NCBI RefSeq assembly: GCF_014634745.1
Contig: NZ_BMBP01000002.1
Coordinates: 248,001 to 312,000, forward strand
DNA: 64,000 bases
From: Leuconostoc pseudomesenteroides KCTC 3652
Lineage (GTDB): Bacteria; Bacillota; Bacilli; Lactobacillales; Lactobacillaceae
Reading direction: 5' to 3'
The translations under genes were made by a program, and so were the position numbers. Positions within the stretch are counted from its first letter, which is position 1. Every line of letters begins with the position of its first letter. The notes beneath the pieces were generated by a model. The model saw nothing but the letters and a program-made list of their open reading frames with translations, ran no database searches and was not told the origin of the DNA. Below are positions 44,339-51,879 of this stretch, one piece after another.

Positions 44339-45568
44339 ATGTCTGAAAATTCTGAAAGTAATCTTTGGAAGCGTAATGTTTTTGTTCTCTGGTTTGGCGT
44401 CTTCATGACCGGAATCGCATTAAGTGAAGTAATGCCGTTTTTAGCATTATATATTGACACTTTAGGTGATTTTAGCAAAAATGAACTCACGTTTTATTCA
44501 GGTGCTGTTTTTGCTATAACGTTCTTGGTCACTGCAATCGTGTCACCATTTTGGGGAAAATTAGCAGATCGTAAAGGTCGAAAACTAATGATGCTACGAG
44601 CTGCGTTAGGAATGGCAATTGTACTATTTCTGATGGGATATGTCAGCAATGTTTGGGAACTATTCGCTTTAAGAGCATTACAAGGGGCCATGGGCGGTTT
44701 TGTATCTAACTCAAATGCTTTAATTGCCACCCAAACGCCCAAAGAGCATGCTGGTCACGCTTTAGGTATTTTGGTCACTGGTATGACAGCCGGCAATCTA
44801 CTCGGGCCATTGTTCGGTGGTACACTAGCTTCACTTGTCTCCTATCGAATGTCATTTCACATCACGGGTGTGATTTTATTTCTGGTTTTCCTGTTGACGC
44901 TATTTTTAGTTAAGGAAGAACCTGTTAAAATATCACCTCGAACCGCTCGTGCTTCCACAGCACAACTCTGGCAAGCTGTTCCAAATAAACAACTTATTCT
45001 AGGTTTATTCATCACGACCATGTTAGTACAAACTGTGAATACGTCAATTAATCCCATCGTGAGTTTGTTTGTCCGTGAATTAACGCATAACGCTTCTAAT
45101 ACGACGTTCATCGCTGGTGTAGTCGCTGCCATGCCTGGTATTGCAACGGTTATAGCCGCCCCACAATTTGGAAAAATTGGAGATCGTGTTGGTACTGACC
45201 GCATGATTAAAATCGGGTTCATGATTGCCGTTGTTGCGTTTGTACCAACGGCATTCGTCACTAGTATTTTCATGCTAATGGTCTTTAGATTTATTGTCGG
45301 TATAAGCGATGCGACCATGTTACCTGCCGTGCAAACCATGTTAACTAAAAATTCGCCAATGGCCATGACTAGCCGAATTTTTAGTTATAATCAGAGTTTT
45401 CAAGCTGTTGGTAGTGTGATGGGACCTATGTTTGGCGCCTTGATTGCTAGTATGTTTGATTACCGAGGCATTTTTATCTTCAGTGCGCTACTAATTGTTC
45501 TCAATGCCATTTTATTTAACTTTAACGTCAAATCGCTCAAAAAAGATGAGAGTGCAACAAAAGCCTAA
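44339..45568 (+). CDS. Multidrug efflux MFS transporter, PmrA-like
   Basis: 409 residues with twelve predicted membrane helices and the DHA1 motif A, GKLADRKGRKLMM (about 79-91), between helices 2 and 3; GNLLGPLFGGTLAS (about 161-174) is the motif C found in exporters. It is closest in form to PmrA/TetA-type proton antiporters that export drugs. The ATG at 44339 has no Shine-Dalgarno sequence, so expression probably depends on the leader peptide. It ends in a terminator that includes its own stop codon. Confidence 0.93.
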   Translation: MSENSESNLWKRNVFVLWFGVFMTGIALSEVMPFLALYIDTLGDFSKNELTFYSGAVFAITFLVTAIVSPFWGKLADRKGRKLMMLRAALGMAIVLFLMGYVSNVWELFALRALQGAMGGFVSNSNALIATQTPKEHAGHALGILVTGMTAGNLLGPLFGGTLASLVSYRMSFHITGVILFLVFLLTLFLVKEEPVKISPRTARASTAQLWQAVPNKQLILGLFITTMLVQTVNTSINPIVSLFVRELTHNASNTTFIAGVVAAMPGIATVIAAPQFGKIGDRVGTDRMIKIGFMIAVVAFVPTAFVTSIFMLMVFRFIVGISDATMLPAVQTMLTKNSPMAMTSRIFSYNQSFQAVGSVMGPMFGALIASMFDYRGIFIFSALLIVLNAILFNFNVKSLKKDESATKA

Positions 45569-45597
45569 ACATGTCATCTCATGTTTAGGCTTTTTTA
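45563..45597. terminator. Terminator of the MFS gene (shared with the convergent gene)
   Basis: GCCTAAACATG (45563-45573) and CATGTTTAGGC (45580-45590): perfect 11-bp stem, six T on the right and four on the opposite strand. Confidence 0.92.
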
Positions 45598-45881
45598 TAT
45601 GGTAATAACAAATCATTATCAACAGTTTCGGATGTCCATCGTTGCATTGGCGTGTAGGCATGGCGTTGATTAAAAGGCAAGTTTTCCACTGCTATCACAG
45701 CAATAGTTTGGTTATTTTCAGTCAAAAAAACTTGTCCAAAGCTAACGTACTTACCTTTTGTATGCTTACCTGTTCGCCAAATATTTGGCTTGGCGTCCTT
45801 TTTTGGCACGTATCGTCCAGAAGCATTTTGTTCAACTATAATACCGGTGTACAGATATGTTTCATATTTTGATTTATTCAT
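45585..45881 (-). CDS. Hypothetical protein, 98 aa, coupled to the CarB-like gene
   Basis: Unknown 98-residue protein, basic and rich in Thr, Tyr and Lys, with a predicted beta-strand core (KYVSFGQVFLTENNQTIAVI, about 44-63). It starts inside the end of the CarB-like gene (eight-base overlap), so it is translated with it and probably works with or after it. No family is recognised. It is the last gene of the rluD-pyrR-carA'-carB' series. Confidence 0.7.
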   Translation of the reverse strand: MNKSKYETYLYTGIIVEQNASGRYVPKKDAKPNIWRTGKHTKGKYVSFGQVFLTENNQTIAVIAVENLPFNQRHAYTPMQRWTSETVDNDLLLPYKKA

Positions 45882-48375
45882 CGTATTTAATGCCTACCCC
45901 AATTTCAAATCGCGTACCATCAATTGTTTGTGTCGGCTGTAAGTGTAAAGCATAATTAATATCTGAAGCAATCATAGCAACATCTGCCTGCAAAATTAAT
46001 TTATTCACATTTACTAATAGTTCATTGTCCTGTAACGTCATTCTTGACAACAAAGCTCTCACTGTCATACGCAACCACTGCACTTGCATCACTTTACTCA
46101 TAAACGCAACTTGGCCAAATGGCATTGGTCGCAACCACGTATCATGTGATATATCGGGCACATCAACATGCTTGACCCATTCTGACGTATCTTGATACCA
46201 AATCACTTGATAAACACCAGGATTTTCTAAGTGTGTTTGTGCTAGCTGAATTGGCAGTTGTGCAATTTCTGGTACAATACGAAGCTCACCAGTCATGTGT
46301 TGTGTAATATTGATTGGATAAATGTTGTGCCCATCAGAAAAGACATTGAGAGCAAATTCTGTTTCAGTATCATCTGGACCATTCGGCACATGTTTTTCTT
46401 TTGGCAAAATTAAGACATTTTGCTTTAAATCAGTTAAAGCATCAATCAGTTTACGTCGATTACCAGGTACAATGATAGCAATTGGTTTTTCAAGCGCCAC
46501 TACTTTCATGACATCTGATATCTCTAAGGGTTCCAGATACTGCTTGTCGGCCAAATTTTGTAGTAAGGTAGCATCACTTGCATTATTATTCATAATTACG
46601 GTGTGATATTGTAAACGTCTTAATTCCGACAAAACAATCGTGGTTGCATAACCACCAGCGGCTGCATCGCCCATTCGGAATGCACCACTACCAATAACTA
46701 AGACAGTATCGTCACTCACCGGCAATGATTCATTTTCCTCTTCGTAAGTTGCATAATATTGTCTAGCGTTTTCTGGAAATTCACCAGCAGATGGTTCTAA
46801 TGCTTTAAAAGTTGGTTCAATATGATTTTCGTGTGCCAATGTTGCGATATTTTTGAAATTAGTCTGCCAGAATCGTGCTAACAAGCCGTCTGACAAACCA
46901 TACTTTTTTGCACGGCGCAACGCTTCAACACTGTCAGCTTGTTGTTCCACCTCTAATTCTAACTTTAATAAATGACCCAGTTGGTAGAAAAAGAATTCGT
47001 CAATATTAGTTAATTCAGCTAATTCATCAATTTCATAACCACGCTTAATCGCTTCAACTAGAAGCAACACGCGATTGTCTTCTGGATGAATTAATTGTTG
47101 AATCAACGCATCATCCGAACTATGGCTCATATTGGTTGGTGAAAAACTCGCATTATTAAAATGGGCTGAACGAATTGCTTTTTCAAGTGCTTCGATAAAT
47201 GTACGCCCAAAGCCAATTGTCGATCCAACAGATTTCTGAATACTATTGAGTTGACGATTAACTGAAACGCCTGCTTGCTCCAATTCACCGAAGGGAAAAA
47301 TTGGTAATTTGACAGTGACGTGATCCATCATCGGTTCCATCATTGCCATTTTTTTGCCAAAATCATGGGATAAAACAATTTCTTCAAGGGCAACACCCAT
47401 CGCCAAATTAATTGCAACCAACATGACAGGGTAACCTGTAACCAGCGCCATACGACTGGCCATTTGATCAATATATGGTGATATCTTGATAATATAGATA
47501 GTATTCGTCAAATCATCAACTGCAAATTGGACATGCAATACACCTCTTAAGTCTAATAAATCAGCAACCTGAAAGGCATAAAATCTCATTTTTTCTAAAA
47601 TTTGATCTGAAAGTGTTAGTGTCGGCGATACACTCAAGGAGTCAGCAGTATGGATTCCTATGGGATCCATGTCCTCGCTAGCACCGATTTGCATTTTATT
47701 GCCTCGAAAATCTCGCAATACTTCAAGACTGACTTCTTTCATACCGTTAATAGCTCTGGAAATCACGATTTCTTGTGTCATCGACTGACTTTTAGCACTA
47801 TTCACAGCTGTTTCAAATTCGTCTAATCGTTCAACAATTTGACGCGTATTTGCCTGATTTGGGTGCAAAGCCCGCACCATTAAAGGTAACTTAATTTCAC
47901 GTAGTAGTTCATTAGCATCTTCTTGTGCCTTAGCAACATGGTTCGTAATAACCGGTAATCCAGCATCAGCCATCATACTTGTCAAAACGGCCACGTTGTT
48001 AACACGCAATAGCATGTCAATAGTTAATCCTAGCGTTTGCGGTACCGGACCATCGCCGTGTGACCATGCCTGAACCGTTTGCGACCACAAACGTAACGCA
48101 CGTTCACCACCAAATAGTGGCAAAACAGTATCGATTTGATACTGTTTAATAACAGCCTTAATATTTTCAACCGTTAGTGGTTGCCAAATAGCCGTTGCTG
48201 CTAAACTTTCCAACGATAATGAGTAAGGATTCTCGTCAATCAAGTAGACATTAACACCATGACCACGAAGTTCAGGCATCACTTGATAAATGGCTGCATC
48301 GTATTCTGCTTCACGACCAAAATCGTTAGCACCTGCGCCGATAAATAATACATTGTTAGCTGTGATGTTCGACAT
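45874..48375 (-). CDS. Degenerate carbamoyl-phosphate synthase large-subunit-like protein
   Basis: 833 residues; normal CarB has about 1060. The N-terminal half aligns through the pre-ATP-grasp domain and the segment RDFRGNKMQIGASEDMDPIG, but the Gly-rich nucleotide loop is replaced (ALHPNQANTRQ) and the metal-binding E-V-N-P-R motif reads YIIKISPYIDQ, losing Glu, Asn and Arg. The second half begins with a recognisable pre-ATP-grasp domain (VLVIGSGAFRMGDAA), but most of the second ATP-grasp domain is missing. There are no stops or frameshifts. It overlaps the CarA-like gene by 20 bases. It cannot be an ordinary synthase; a regulatory or structural role is inferred. Confidence 0.85.
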   Translation of the reverse strand: MSNITANNVLFIGAGANDFGREAEYDAAIYQVMPELRGHGVNVYLIDENPYSLSLESLAATAIWQPLTVENIKAVIKQYQIDTVLPLFGGERALRLWSQTVQAWSHGDGPVPQTLGLTIDMLLRVNNVAVLTSMMADAGLPVITNHVAKAQEDANELLREIKLPLMVRALHPNQANTRQIVERLDEFETAVNSAKSQSMTQEIVISRAINGMKEVSLEVLRDFRGNKMQIGASEDMDPIGIHTADSLSVSPTLTLSDQILEKMRFYAFQVADLLDLRGVLHVQFAVDDLTNTIYIIKISPYIDQMASRMALVTGYPVMLVAINLAMGVALEEIVLSHDFGKKMAMMEPMMDHVTVKLPIFPFGELEQAGVSVNRQLNSIQKSVGSTIGFGRTFIEALEKAIRSAHFNNASFSPTNMSHSSDDALIQQLIHPEDNRVLLLVEAIKRGYEIDELAELTNIDEFFFYQLGHLLKLELEVEQQADSVEALRRAKKYGLSDGLLARFWQTNFKNIATLAHENHIEPTFKALEPSAGEFPENARQYYATYEEENESLPVSDDTVLVIGSGAFRMGDAAAGGYATTIVLSELRRLQYHTVIMNNNASDATLLQNLADKQYLEPLEISDVMKVVALEKPIAIIVPGNRRKLIDALTDLKQNVLILPKEKHVPNGPDDTETEFALNVFSDGHNIYPINITQHMTGELRIVPEIAQLPIQLAQTHLENPGVYQVIWYQDTSEWVKHVDVPDISHDTWLRPMPFGQVAFMSKVMQVQWLRMTVRALLSRMTLQDNELLVNVNKLILQADVAMIASDINYALHLQPTQTIDGTRFEIGVGIKYDE

Positions 48376-49435
48376 AGTCCTCTACCGTTTCAAAAAAATC
48401 TGCAAAAACTGCTGTAGCTTCTAATGGTCCTGGCGCAGCATCAGGGAAAAACTGTACACTAAAAGCCGGATATTCACGGTGCCGCAAGCCTTGCACAGCA
48501 CCATCTACCAAATCCCGATAAGTGACAAATAACTTTTTGCGATCAATTGAGTCATTGTCAACAGCATAACCTTGCCCTTGCATCGCAAAGAAAATCTGTC
48601 TCGAAATAATTTCTTGTATTGGATGATTCATACCATGATGTTCCGACGATAGCGGTGCTAAAGTAGCATCATTGGCTAGTGCAAATAACTCATGCCCTAA
48701 TCCAATACCTAGTAATGGCGCCTTCGTTTGCAAAACACGAATTAATGTTAATACACTATCTGGTAATGAACGTGGGTCACCAGGTCCTGTCGACAGAATG
48801 ATCCCGTCAGGATCCAGCGTGAGTACCTCATCTACACTTGTTGTGTAAGGTAATACGGAAACATTGGCATCATAATCGCCTAACATTCGCAATATACCAT
48901 GTTTTAATCCAAAATCGATGACAACAATATGCCGTCCACGCCCTGGATTAGCATAAGGCTTTAGTGTTGCCGTATTTTGCACCTGCTTGTTCGTCAAGAC
49001 CGTGGCAACTAATTGATCAACAGCATGATCGTCCGCAAAATCAACGATTGTAGCCTTTTGTGGGCCAGTTTCTCGCAAATGACGAATCAATTTTCGTGTA
49101 TCTACTTGATACAATCCGGGCACGTTATGTTGCTTCAAAAAACGGTCTAAATTCATACGCCGTTGTCGATTAACAGAAACTTCTGCCAAATCGTGGACAA
49201 TCATTCCCCTGATGGCTGGTTTGACAGACTCATAAGCCTCAGCATGAATCCCTGCCGCACCAATAACAGGCATAGCAAATACAATCATTTGCCCATCATA
49301 TATTGGATCTGTAATAATTTCTTGATAACCGGTCATGGCAGTATGAAAGATGATTTCACCAAACGTAGTAGCAGGCGCACCAAAACCAAGACCTTCAAAA
49401 ACAGTCCCGTCTTCTAAGATTAAATGTCTTTTCAT
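48356..49435 (-). CDS. Degenerate carbamoyl-phosphate synthase small-subunit-like protein
   Basis: 359 residues, near normal length, from ATG 49435 (GGAG ten bases before). It follows CarA closely in the N-terminal domain (HTAMTGYQEIITDPIYDGQM, YQVDTRKLIRHLRETG) and in the class I amidotransferase fold (LSTGPGDP). The catalytic residues are gone: the nucleophile Cys of G-I-C-L-G-H is Gly245 (GIGLGHE), and the His and Glu of Q-x-H-P-E are Phe330 and Asp332 (SVQFFPDAAPGP). It therefore cannot release ammonia from glutamine. It follows pyrR by 58 bases. The role is unknown; genuine carAB genes must be elsewhere. Confidence 0.88.
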   Translation of the reverse strand: MKRHLILEDGTVFEGLGFGAPATTFGEIIFHTAMTGYQEIITDPIYDGQMIVFAMPVIGAAGIHAEAYESVKPAIRGMIVHDLAEVSVNRQRRMNLDRFLKQHNVPGLYQVDTRKLIRHLRETGPQKATIVDFADDHAVDQLVATVLTNKQVQNTATLKPYANPGRGRHIVVIDFGLKHGILRMLGDYDANVSVLPYTTSVDEVLTLDPDGIILSTGPGDPRSLPDSVLTLIRVLQTKAPLLGIGLGHELFALANDATLAPLSSEHHGMNHPIQEIISRQIFFAMQGQGYAVDNDSIDRKKLFVTYRDLVDGAVQGLRHREYPAFSVQFFPDAAPGPLEATAVFADFFETVEDYVEHHS

Positions 49436-49493
49436 AAATACCACACTCCAAAGTTATCATGGCTACACATCAAGATAACCAACAAATTTTGAT

Positions 49494-50021
49494 TTAGTGA
49501 ACAATTTCCACGGCGTCCTTGCCATCAATTTCCTGTACAAATACCTTGATTTTTTCGTTCTGAGCTGTTGGAATATTTTTCCCAACAAAATCGGCTCGAA
49601 TTGGCAATTCTCGGTGACCACGATCCACTAAAACAGCTAAAGCAATTGTTTTCGGACGACCAATATGAATTAAAGCGTCCAATGCTGCACGAATTGTTCG
49701 ACCAGTAAACAGTACATCATCAATCAACACAATATTTTTTTCAGAAATGTTTAATCGTTCAGCTTGATTTAGTCCCAAGTCATCATGATGATCTGGAATA
49801 TCATCACGAAAATTAGTAATATCAATCGCCATCACTGGAATACGCACACCTTCGAGTTGTTCTAGTCGATCAGCGATACGATGAGCCAAAAACTCACCAC
49901 GCGTTTTAATGCCAACTAAAACGAGGTCTTCCCCACCTTTGTTACGCTCAATAATTTCATACGTAATACGAGTTAGCGCTCTTTGCAAAGAGGCATTATC
50001 TAAAACTTCTTTATTTGCCAT
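49494..50021 (-). CDS. pyrR: PyrR: pyrimidine operon attenuator/uracil phosphoribosyltransferase
   Basis: 175 residues. The PRPP-binding motif [17 protein letters not shown] (about 98-114) is intact, and the RNA-binding basic residues of the family (for example [16 protein letters not shown]) are present. PyrR binds pyr mRNA leaders with UMP/UTP and causes termination. I start at the second ATG (50021), since the first is too close to AAAGG. No anti-antiterminator is visible before the CarA-like gene, so the target must be elsewhere. It starts inside the end of rluD. Confidence 0.96.
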
Positions 50022-50949
50022 TGTTTTCATCCTTTCGAATAATAGGTGTTAATGTTGCTAACGCTTGATCAAAATAATCTGGGAGTACACTATCAAACGT
50101 TAACTGTTCAGCTGTCGTTGGCTGCGTTAATGACAAGGTCTTTGCATGTAATAACTGACCATTCAGTGAAACATTTGGTAACTTTTGTGCGTTCCCATAG
50201 ACCGGATCACCGACAATAGGGTGCCCAATATAAGTCATGTGAACACGAATTTGATGTGTACGTCCGGTTTCTAAACGAACTTTTAGCAGTGTATAGCCGA
50301 CAAACCGTTTTAAGACTTGGAAATGTGTAATTGCTTCCCTGCCGCCTTCAGTAACAGCCTGCTTTTTACGATCAACTTTATGACGTGCTAGCGGTGCCGA
50401 AATGGTGCCAGTATCTTCCTGAAATTCGCCGCGAACTAAGGCAATATAGATACGTTGATTTTTATGCGCCTTTAATTGTGCAGACAATGCTTGATGGGCG
50501 CTATCATTTTTTGCAACCATCAATAATCCACTAGTGTCACGGTCAATACGATGTACAATTCCTGGTCGAAATTCACCATTAATGGTAGACAGTGGTGAAT
50601 GATACATTAATGCGTTCACCAGTGTACCTGTCGTATGACCAGCAGCCGGATGCACAACCATACCTTGTGGTTTATTAACGACTAACAAATCATCATCTTC
50701 ATATACAATATCAAGCGGTATATTTTCAGCCAAAATTTCAGTGTCTTTAATTTCTGGCGGCGTAATTGTGACAACATCACCTGAAGATACTTTGTAAGAT
50801 CTCTTCACCTGTGTGCCGTTGACTAAAACATTGCCTTCTAAAAGCCAATCTGACAATGTTGTTCTAGAATACGGTAACGTTTCTTTTGCCAAAACGGCAT
50901 CAATGCGCCCAACCTGATCAACAATGTTAATCGTTATGTTATCTGCCAT
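50011..50949 (-). CDS. rluD: RluD-family 23S rRNA pseudouridine synthase
   Basis: 312 residues from ATG 50949 ([17 protein letters not shown]), which overlaps the end of the EbsA-like gene; an upstream start lacks a ribosome site. It has an S4 RNA-binding domain (about 14-75) and the catalytic domain with [16 protein letters not shown] (about 137-152, catalytic Asp). The family modifies helix 69 or other uridines in 23S RNA. In lactobacilli and leuconostocs it stands before pyrR, as here. Confidence 0.95.
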
Positions 50950-51328
50950 TCGTATCTTTATATCCTTTAATTTGCTCCGCGACATTGCGACTTAATAGGT
51001 ATTTTCTTTTACGGTCTGCACGTTCAAAAGACAAAATACGTCCCTTTATTTGCCAATTATCAATGTCTTCTAACTTAACTTTTTCGTATTCAGCCATTAA
51101 GATACGCCCCAAGAAAATTTGCGAGCCGGCCAAATAAACGCGCCTTCGAATAATCATTAACAGTCCCACTACGAGGACAACTAAAATGCTAACAATGGGT
51201 AGAACATCCAGTTTGAAGCCAATTTCATTCCAAATAATGAAACTCAACATCAAAAATACACCCCACCATAACCAACTCATGAGGCCAACAGAATCAATTG
51301 GCTGAAAATAACCGCGTTTTGGTACCAT
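50939..51328 (-). CDS. EbsA-family membrane protein
   Basis: 129 residues with two adjacent membrane helices (about 18-36 and 43-62) and a cytoplasmic C-terminal domain of about 65 residues with basic and aromatic residues. The build and neighbourhood (before rluD-pyrR) agree with the EbsA family of lactic acid bacteria, named from a locus affecting enterococcal surface aggregation substance. Molecular function is unknown. First gene of the leftward series through carB'. Confidence 0.7.
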   Translation of the reverse strand: MVPKRGYFQPIDSVGLMSWLWWGVFLMLSFIIWNEIGFKLDVLPIVSILVVLVVGLLMIIRRRVYLAGSQIFLGRILMAEYEKVKLEDIDNWQIKGRILSFERADRKRKYLLSRNVAEQIKGYKDTNGR

Positions 51329-51456
51329 GTGAAACTCTTTTCTATAAACGTATTCGTAACCTATTTTACCAGATTTTTGATATTAAAAAAATGATGACAA
51401 ATAAAAGTTAGCTTTCCAGTATCAGGGTTGTGATATTTTAGAATACTGATTTCTGT

Positions 51457-51462
51457 TATAAT
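51457..51462 (+). promoter_or_regulatory. Extended -10 promoter of the RNase H-like gene
   Basis: TGT then TATAAT (51457-51462), 34 bases before the ATG; a clear -35 is absent. Confidence 0.6.
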
Positions 51463-51495
51463 GGTTGCTATAAACCATTTCAGGGGATTTTAGAC

Positions 51496-51879
51496 ATGAT
51501 GACACTTTATGTTGACGCAGCGCGAAACGTCCACACTGGGCAATCAGCAGTTGGAGCGGTTTTAATCGTCAACAAGCACCAGCAACAACTCAAAAGCGAC
51601 TTACCCCAAAGCGCTGATAATCATGAAGCCGAGTTCATGGGGCTTATCTGGGGCATCAAACAGTTACCAATGATTGATAATTTACAGATTTATACCGATT
51701 CAAAAATTGTCGCTGACGCTATTCAAAAAAAATATGCCAAACACTACCAATCTTATGTCGATCGAATTATAAGCCTATTATCTGAATTCCCTTTGGTCTT
51801 AATTAGTTGGATACCCGAAAAACAAAATCATGGTGCACACCAGCTCGCAATGCAGGCGTTAAAAAAAACGAACCGCTAA
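51496..51879 (+). CDS. RNase H-like protein
   Basis: 127 residues with the ribonuclease-H fold: YVDAARN (Asp7), HEAEFMGL (Glu44/46) and YTDSK (Asp68) correspond to the first three catalytic acids. At the fourth, where RNase HI has Asp in A-D-x-L-A, this protein has His115 (GAHQLA). It also lacks the basic protrusion. Such short RNase H-like proteins are common in lactobacilli beside ebsA. It may cut RNA of RNA-DNA hybrids weakly. AGGGGA precedes the ATG. Confidence 0.8.
   Translation: MMTLYVDAARNVHTGQSAVGAVLIVNKHQQQLKSDLPQSADNHEAEFMGLIWGIKQLPMIDNLQIYTDSKIVADAIQKKYAKHYQSYVDRIISLLSEFPLVLISWIPEKQNHGAHQLAMQALKKTNR

Follow-up and report, generated by a model that had tools for sequence, protein, structure and literature searches.

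Within a 64,000-nt stretch of Leuconostoc pseudomesenteroides KCTC 3652 (contig NZ_BMBP01000002.1, positions 248,001-312,000; hereafter the window, within which all coordinates are counted), pyrR is followed on the minus strand by two overlapping genes, carA' and carB', which encode small and large subunits of carbamoyl phosphate synthetase (CPS) that have both lost their catalytic residues. It is near certain that they form a real and conserved pseudo-CPS that is kept by selection. In terms of function, we propose that CarA'-CarB' is a pseudoenzyme derived from the CPS of an ancestral pyr operon and acts as a protein partner of PyrR, a proposal that in our judgement could equally well prove right or wrong.

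A sequence-only reading of the window had claimed an 833-residue CarB-like protein with YIIKISPYIDQ at a dead metal site, no Gly-rich loop, and a retained second pre-ATP-grasp fold with most of ATP-grasp 2 gone, coupled by a 20-base overlap to a CarA-like gene and positioned after pyrR. The open frame, the coordinates, and an alignment numbered on E. coli agreed with these points, while the minus-strand orientation, the loss of the MGS domain, and a second, intact CarAB in the same genome had been missed. The features of the pair are as follows:

45874 to 48375, minus strand: carB', large subunit of the pseudo-CPS, 833 amino acids (open frame, Pfam and alignment)
45874 to 48375, minus strand: domains of carB', namely pre-ATP-grasp 1, dead ATP-grasp 1, oligomerisation domain, pre-ATP-grasp 2 and ATP-grasp 2 remnant, without MGS
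47464 to 47496, minus strand: YIIKISPYIDQ, dead metal/bicarbonate site of ATP-grasp 1, with E299 to K, N301 to S and R303 to Y (computed from the frame)
48356 to 49444, minus strand: carA', small subunit of the pseudo-CPS, amidotransferase fold, 362 amino acids from GTG (open frame)
48689 to 48709, minus strand: GIGLGHE, nucleophile elbow, Cys269 to Gly (computed from the frame)
48446 to 48448, minus strand: Phe at the position of catalytic His353 (computed from the frame)
48356 to 48375, minus strand: overlap of carA' and carB', 20 bases
49494 to 50030, minus strand: pyrR, the sole PyrR gene found in the genome

The start of CarA' is probably the ATG at residue 4 (about 359 amino acids), near which most relatives begin, and a gap of 49 bases lies between pyrR and the downstream carA'.

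Loss of catalytic residues and domains

The catalytic residues of CPS are established from its enzymology, and residues are numbered here as in E. coli K-12 CarA and CarB. CarA' carries both CPS small-chain domains of Pfam and passes NF009475 with 411.6 bits against a cut-off of 221; it reads GIGLGHE in comparison to GICLGHQ, and FSVQFFPD with Phe for the catalytic His, so that both Cys269 and His353 are absent. In CarB', Pfam identified CPSase_L_D1, D2 and D3 (pre-ATP-grasp, ATP-grasp 1 and oligomerisation domain), and the TIGR01369 match spans residues 5-637 alone, scoring 417 bits where the cut-off is 1027. In addition to the replaced Mg ligands and R303 listed above, R129 is Val and G175/G176 of the Gly-rich loop read Q/A, while R169, E215, H243, S247 and Q285 are retained. 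Pre-ATP-grasp 2 is retained; ATP-grasp 2 has lost its front by deletion and is degenerate in the rear half. The MGS allosteric domain (PF02142) is gone from CarB' of the window and kept in the genome's own active CarB; it was likewise kept in three full-length dead CarB and absent from three truncated CarB' scanned besides that of the window.

The same positions were counted in 55 dead CPS, whose genomes and records were picked by hand and include 18 Leuconostoc and 4 close kin, so that the rows are not independent. All 55 CarA have Gly for Cys269 and have lost His353. Among the CarB, E299 is replaced in 53 (K in 47, R in 3, other residues in 3) and kept in 2, R303 is replaced in 52 (Tyr in 41) with Arg in the remaining 3, and N236 is Asp in 39, while E215 is retained in 53, H243 in 52 and S247 in all 55. 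All 19 CarAB of the active comparison set, by comparison, keep Cys269, His353, E299, N301 and R303; the other CarAB of the window's own genome is among the 19. Judged by its residues, CarA'-CarB' would be able neither to hydrolyse glutamine nor to make carboxyphosphate or carbamoyl phosphate. Lys299 and Asp236 may, through a salt bridge, stand in for the potassium ion of the old site.

The structure predicted for CarB' from 10 sequences was of low confidence, with a mean predicted local distance difference test score (pLDDT) of 60.2. The 17 best Foldseek matches of this weak model were all CPS chains (TMq 0.40-0.45), and the top match among solved structures was the CPS large subunit (E 1.1e-44, TMq 0.44, root mean square deviation 11). 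The model supports a CPS fold, and not any mechanism.

Distribution and selection

Of the 301 genomes in the family Lactobacillaceae, up to 178 had CarB' at E <= 1e-110, representing 23 of 40 genera. Four of the 178 (G131, G182, G204 and G257; E 1.6e-111 to 3.3e-112) may be active CarB, their congeners being unmatched, and the cut-off misses full-length dead forms (G028, G032, G034) and the most diverged ones (G021, G026, G027). CarB' was present in 18 of 18 same-genus relatives, although broken in one (G018, a poor draft). In a quick tree from which near-duplicates were left out, 41 dead CarA rows formed one clade with a Shimodaira-Hasegawa-like approximate likelihood ratio test (SH-aLRT) support of 94.

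The ratio of nonsynonymous to synonymous substitution rates (dN/dS), calculated by the Nei-Gojobori method with our own script, was 0.005 to 0.019 for CarA' and 0.012 to 0.038 for CarB' between Leuconostoc pairs, in comparison to 0.022 for active CarA and 0.018 for active CarB in one close Leuconostoc pair; active CarB gave 0.029 to 0.036 in two pairs with dS > 2, and further pairs were saturated. Over all Lactobacillaceae dead-pair comparisons the range was 0.005 to 0.06. Between G000 and G009 the identity was 91.7% for CarA' in comparison to 86.2% for active CarA, and 73.3% for CarB' in comparison to 89.2% for active CarB, i.e., the small subunit is constrained as closely as an enzyme, the large subunit less so.

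The earlier proposal of two dead subunits that selection maintains is thus upheld by the residue counts and dN/dS, and a test set beforehand, in which presence in this strain only with decay in relatives would have told against it, came out opposite, with wide distribution and low dN/dS. The system had also been called undescribed, and no description of a dead CPS pair of this kind beside pyrR was found in the searches made of the open-licence literature.

Active CPS elsewhere in the genome and its absence

The genome of the window holds an intact CarAB in its pyr operon, in the order pyrB-C-carA-carB-D-F-E. In 76 CarB' genomes hand-picked from the 178 (14 genera), other CarB were sought at E <= 1e-200; another match was found in 47, two of which (G280, G319) show only part of it, and none in 29, among them 13 of 14 of genus g16. 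Selection was tried in 11 of these 29 CPS-less genomes, using the 35 of 81 gene pairs with dS < 2, and dN/dS was 0.006 to 0.021 for CarA' (9 genomes), 0.012 to 0.060 for CarB' (6 genomes), and 0.005 to 0.074 for PyrR. The 29 genomes without another CPS, together with the strong selection on the pair, indicate that the pair is not merely a subunit of the active enzyme.

Probable origin from an ancestral pyr operon and an apparent second origin

In G029, G030 and G043 (L079, L080, L082), lspA-rluD is followed by pyrR-pyrP-pyrB-pyrC-carA-carB and more pyr genes, and the CPS encoded there is active. At that position G028 and G032 (L066, L069) have pyrR-pyrP with a CPS of full length but already dead, and G034 (L081) has a full-length dead CPS without pyrR, while in most other loci read only pyrR-carA'-carB' remains there, often with the same fbpA-like neighbour. 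The dead pair therefore looks like a relic of the ancestral pyr operon, from whose CPS it descends. The gene directly upstream of carA' in 55 loci is pyrR in 49, rluD in 4 and pyrP in 2. Among 41 genomes, 39 of which have a dead pair, PyrR was found in 40 (all but G034) and pyrB in 35. The most reduced form was seen in L072 (G027), with a CarB' of 659 amino acids and a diverged PyrR (42%) of 158 amino acids; searches of the G027 genome found neither pyrB nor a further CarB nor any PyrR RNA site.

A comparable loss was observed in another family of the same order, f4, whose gene sizes are suggestive of Streptococcus. In its genus g22 the CarB frame is 583-585 amino acids in the 10 genomes listed, with 579 amino acids in G047, and other members of g22 have a normal-sized CarB. 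Five f4 loci read pyrR-pyrB-carA-carB, and in G047 a dehydrogenase-like gene (by recognition) takes the place of pyrB. The f4 CarA reads GMGLGAQ, GIGLGAE or AVGLGHL, again with Gly for Cys, H353 being kept in G054; the CarB keeps E299/N301 in G039 and G054 and is without R129 and R303. The dN/dS was 0 to 0.033 for CarA and 0.053 to 0.082 for CarB. In the CarA tree without active f4 members the dead f4 copies fall inside the Lactobacillaceae dead clade, and with four active f4 copies included they group with active f4 at 97; going by this better-sampled tree, the Cys-to-Gly loss in f4 apparently arose independently. Six f4 loci (L139-L141, L147-L149) have a CarB of 577-579 amino acids, and five of them keep pyrB even though searches found no second CarB in the genomes of these six loci.

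The PyrR2 locus of L. plantarum and PyrR RNA sites

We took G288 as L. plantarum, since 6000 bases of its contig C2 were 100% identical to NZ_CP039122.1 (a plasmid can move; the chromosome agrees as well). Of its two PyrR, which are 63.6% identical, one heads an intact pyrR-B-C-carA-carB-D-F-E and the other carA'-carB'; a third CarAB beside arginine-type genes keeps the Cys and metal motifs. Loss of pyrR2 in L. plantarum reportedly leaves cells in need of CO2, or of pyrimidines and arginine. Because pyrR1 belongs to the pyr operon, the copy next to the dead CPS has to be pyrR2, and its locus, rluD-pyrR2-carA'-carB' (L084), corresponds to that in the window, the Leuconostoc genome having one PyrR found in comparison to two in L. 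plantarum. In the portions available, PMC3582564 describes PyrR1 and PyrR2 of L. plantarum as answering to pyrimidines and inorganic carbon, and PMC7911632 gives lp_2704 and lp_1782; these portions, and the titles of the original 2006 and 2008 papers, name PyrR2 alone, with no mention of a dead CPS. The copy beside PyrR2 weighs towards a link of the pair with inorganic carbon.

At E <= 0.01, 35 of 37 genomes had PyrR RNA sites (RF00515), which exceeded the cut-off in 21; 36 of the 37 carry a dead CPS. Going by the coordinates, the site adjoins pyrR of the dead operon in G028 and G032 and lies elsewhere in 32 genomes, a count that excludes G084 and G115, for which the position of the dead pair is not shown. 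The single site in the genome of the window precedes pyrB, whose leader lies at C1:104531-104649, and within 45000-51500 no PyrR attenuator was found even at E <= 1, the only match being a sub-threshold ribozyme. Context was read for the 30 best sites, 16 of which are in genomes counted CPS-less. Among these 16, uracil permease lies downstream in five (L111, L113, L114, L121, L130), and a deoxyribosyltransferase-like open reading frame (ORF) follows in nine (L108, L112, L119, L124, L126-L129, L132), then a permease-like one in seven; the L131 site precedes a permease-like ORF and the L110 site a transporter-like ORF, all names in "-like" being by recognition without family search. Deoxyribosyltransferase-like salvage targets are unexpected for PyrR.

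Proposed role and alternative explanations

The pair has been kept with PyrR through the loss of the pathway, and its simplest job would therefore be with PyrR, a partnership that we rate at about even. CarA'-CarB' would bind a ligand, or PyrR itself, and so alter the action of PyrR on its RNA sites, which lie ahead of the de novo operon here and ahead of uracil/nucleoside uptake or salvage genes where the pathway has been lost. The condition reported would probably be inorganic carbon, that is, carbamoyl-phosphate supply, given that the L. plantarum module is the PyrR2 locus. The contact with PyrR, the ligand and the direction of the effect are all inferred. The sequence-only reading had the dead pair kept by selection and linked to pyrR, which stands; it had also suggested sensing of UMP (uridine monophosphate) or PRPP (phosphoribosyl pyrophosphate), which is not supported as far as the enzyme's own allosteric site is concerned, as Pfam shows that domain to be deleted. 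Sensing by the CPS allosteric site is ruled out by the absence of PF02142 from carB'.

Several observations weigh against the PyrR partnership. The pair stands without an adjoining pyrR in G020, G023 and G187, where pyrR is elsewhere, and no PyrR was found in G034, a genome 87% complete with a full-length dead CPS. Part of the adjacency to pyrR is a legacy of the ancestral operon, a PyrR tree of poor resolution failed to group the copies from dead loci together, and the structure model of CarB' is weak. Furthermore, R303 should hold bicarbonate and is mostly lost, which makes bicarbonate sensing by the old site doubtful. A rival possibility is that the pair is an inorganic-carbon sensor proper, with bicarbonate or CO2 as its ligand and PyrR as the receiver of the signal. 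The position of the pair beside PyrR2 in L. plantarum, the regulator described in part of the literature as answering to inorganic carbon, is in its favour, as is the retention of the carboxyphosphate half in both lineages, where the other half is partly or wholly gone; R303, however, is replaced in 52 of 55 copies of the first lineage and in the three f4 copies aligned, and genomes devoid of any CPS retain the pair as well. We consider such a sensor unlikely.

It is quite improbable that CarB' is a regulatory subunit of the active CPS, whose oligomerisation domain would form mixed oligomers that tune the intact CarAB. PF02787 was above the cut-off in three of four truncated CarB' scanned, the shortest being just below, and another CarB match exists in the genome of the window and in 47 of the 76 sampled, but selection is equally strong in the 29 without one, and in each of the 10 f4 genomes listed the short CarB is the sole match at E <= 1e-45. 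As a general role it is ruled out by the CPS-less genomes. A new catalytic activity on the old scaffold, such as another ligase or amidase, would fit the very low dN/dS and a pocket that is not random (Lys299 in 47 of 55, and E215, H243 and S247 in 53, 52 and 55); it is very unlikely, as the Cys nucleophile, the His and the Mg ligands are all lost and CarB' evolves faster than active CarB (73% versus 89% identity between the same two species). Decay, with pseudogenes carried along by the operon structure, can practically be discounted: broken carB' occurs in the L. inhae KCTC 3774 draft and in G200, both poor drafts, but dN/dS is 0.005 to 0.06, the genes span 23 of 40 genera, and G200 (87% complete) alone has a stop inside the frame among the matches listed. 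The selection test rejects decay of carA'B'. The KCTC 3774 draft (G018; L021/L041/L062) consists of 890 contigs and is titled 'UNVERIFIED'; carB' is intact in L. inhae DSM 15101 (L035), and the break is possibly an assembly error.

Neighbouring genes

The minus-strand run in the window is rluD-pyrR-carA'-carB'-DUF7671, the outer members of which are:

50011 to 50985, minus strand: rluD-like pseudouridine synthase, upstream member of the conserved run (named by recognition, without family-library search)
45585 to 45881, minus strand: DUF7671 (PF24710) gene, overlapping the end of carB' by 8 bases (Pfam)

Neighbour names other than pyrR, carA, carB and DUF7671 come from recognition of the reference ORFs, to which other loci were matched by BLAST. 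DUF7671 was the neighbour in 8 of 8 further Leuconostoc-like loci compared (L051, L052, L055-L058, L061, L062) and in none of the non-Leuconostoc-like loci of the same comparison. Promoter and terminator scans gave no excess over shuffled sequences.

Comparison with known systems and implications

The pair shares descent, the domain order of the first 637 residues, and coupled carA-carB genes with CarAB (E. coli 1bxr/1jdb; TIGR01368/TIGR01369), from which it differs in lacking the nucleophile, the Mg ligands, a complete second ATP-grasp and the MGS domain. Mammalian CPS I also has an amidotransferase without the Cys, but both of its ATP-grasp sites are preserved and it works with ammonia, whereas in CarA'-CarB' the ATP-grasp is dead as well. 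The S-adenosylmethionine decarboxylase (AdoMetDC) prozyme, a regulatory pseudoenzyme treated in PMC5201418 and PMC6221367, is likewise a catalytically dead paralogue kept by selection; in the present case, however, both subunits of a two-subunit enzyme are dead, and they persist where the active paralogue is gone.

All four dead CarA scanned (from the window, L. plantarum, one CPS-less genome and one f4 genome) pass the NF009475/TIGR01368 cut-offs. Dead CarA that pass NCBI cut-offs are an annotation hazard, and auxotrophs may be assigned carbamoyl-phosphate synthesis in metabolic models. Much of the family retains both subunits of this textbook enzyme in dead form, even without the active enzyme. 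A wider proposal, which we offer tentatively and regard as rather doubtful, is that lactic acid bacteria and relatives have at least twice made a whole CPS into a non-catalytic co-regulator of PyrR, which would be the missing PyrR2 sensor of inorganic-carbon or carbamoyl-phosphate supply and would have outlived the pathway to govern uracil/nucleoside uptake. The pseudo-CPS thereby offers a testable answer to inorganic-carbon sensing by PyrR2, which is left unexplained in the available portions of the PyrR2 literature.

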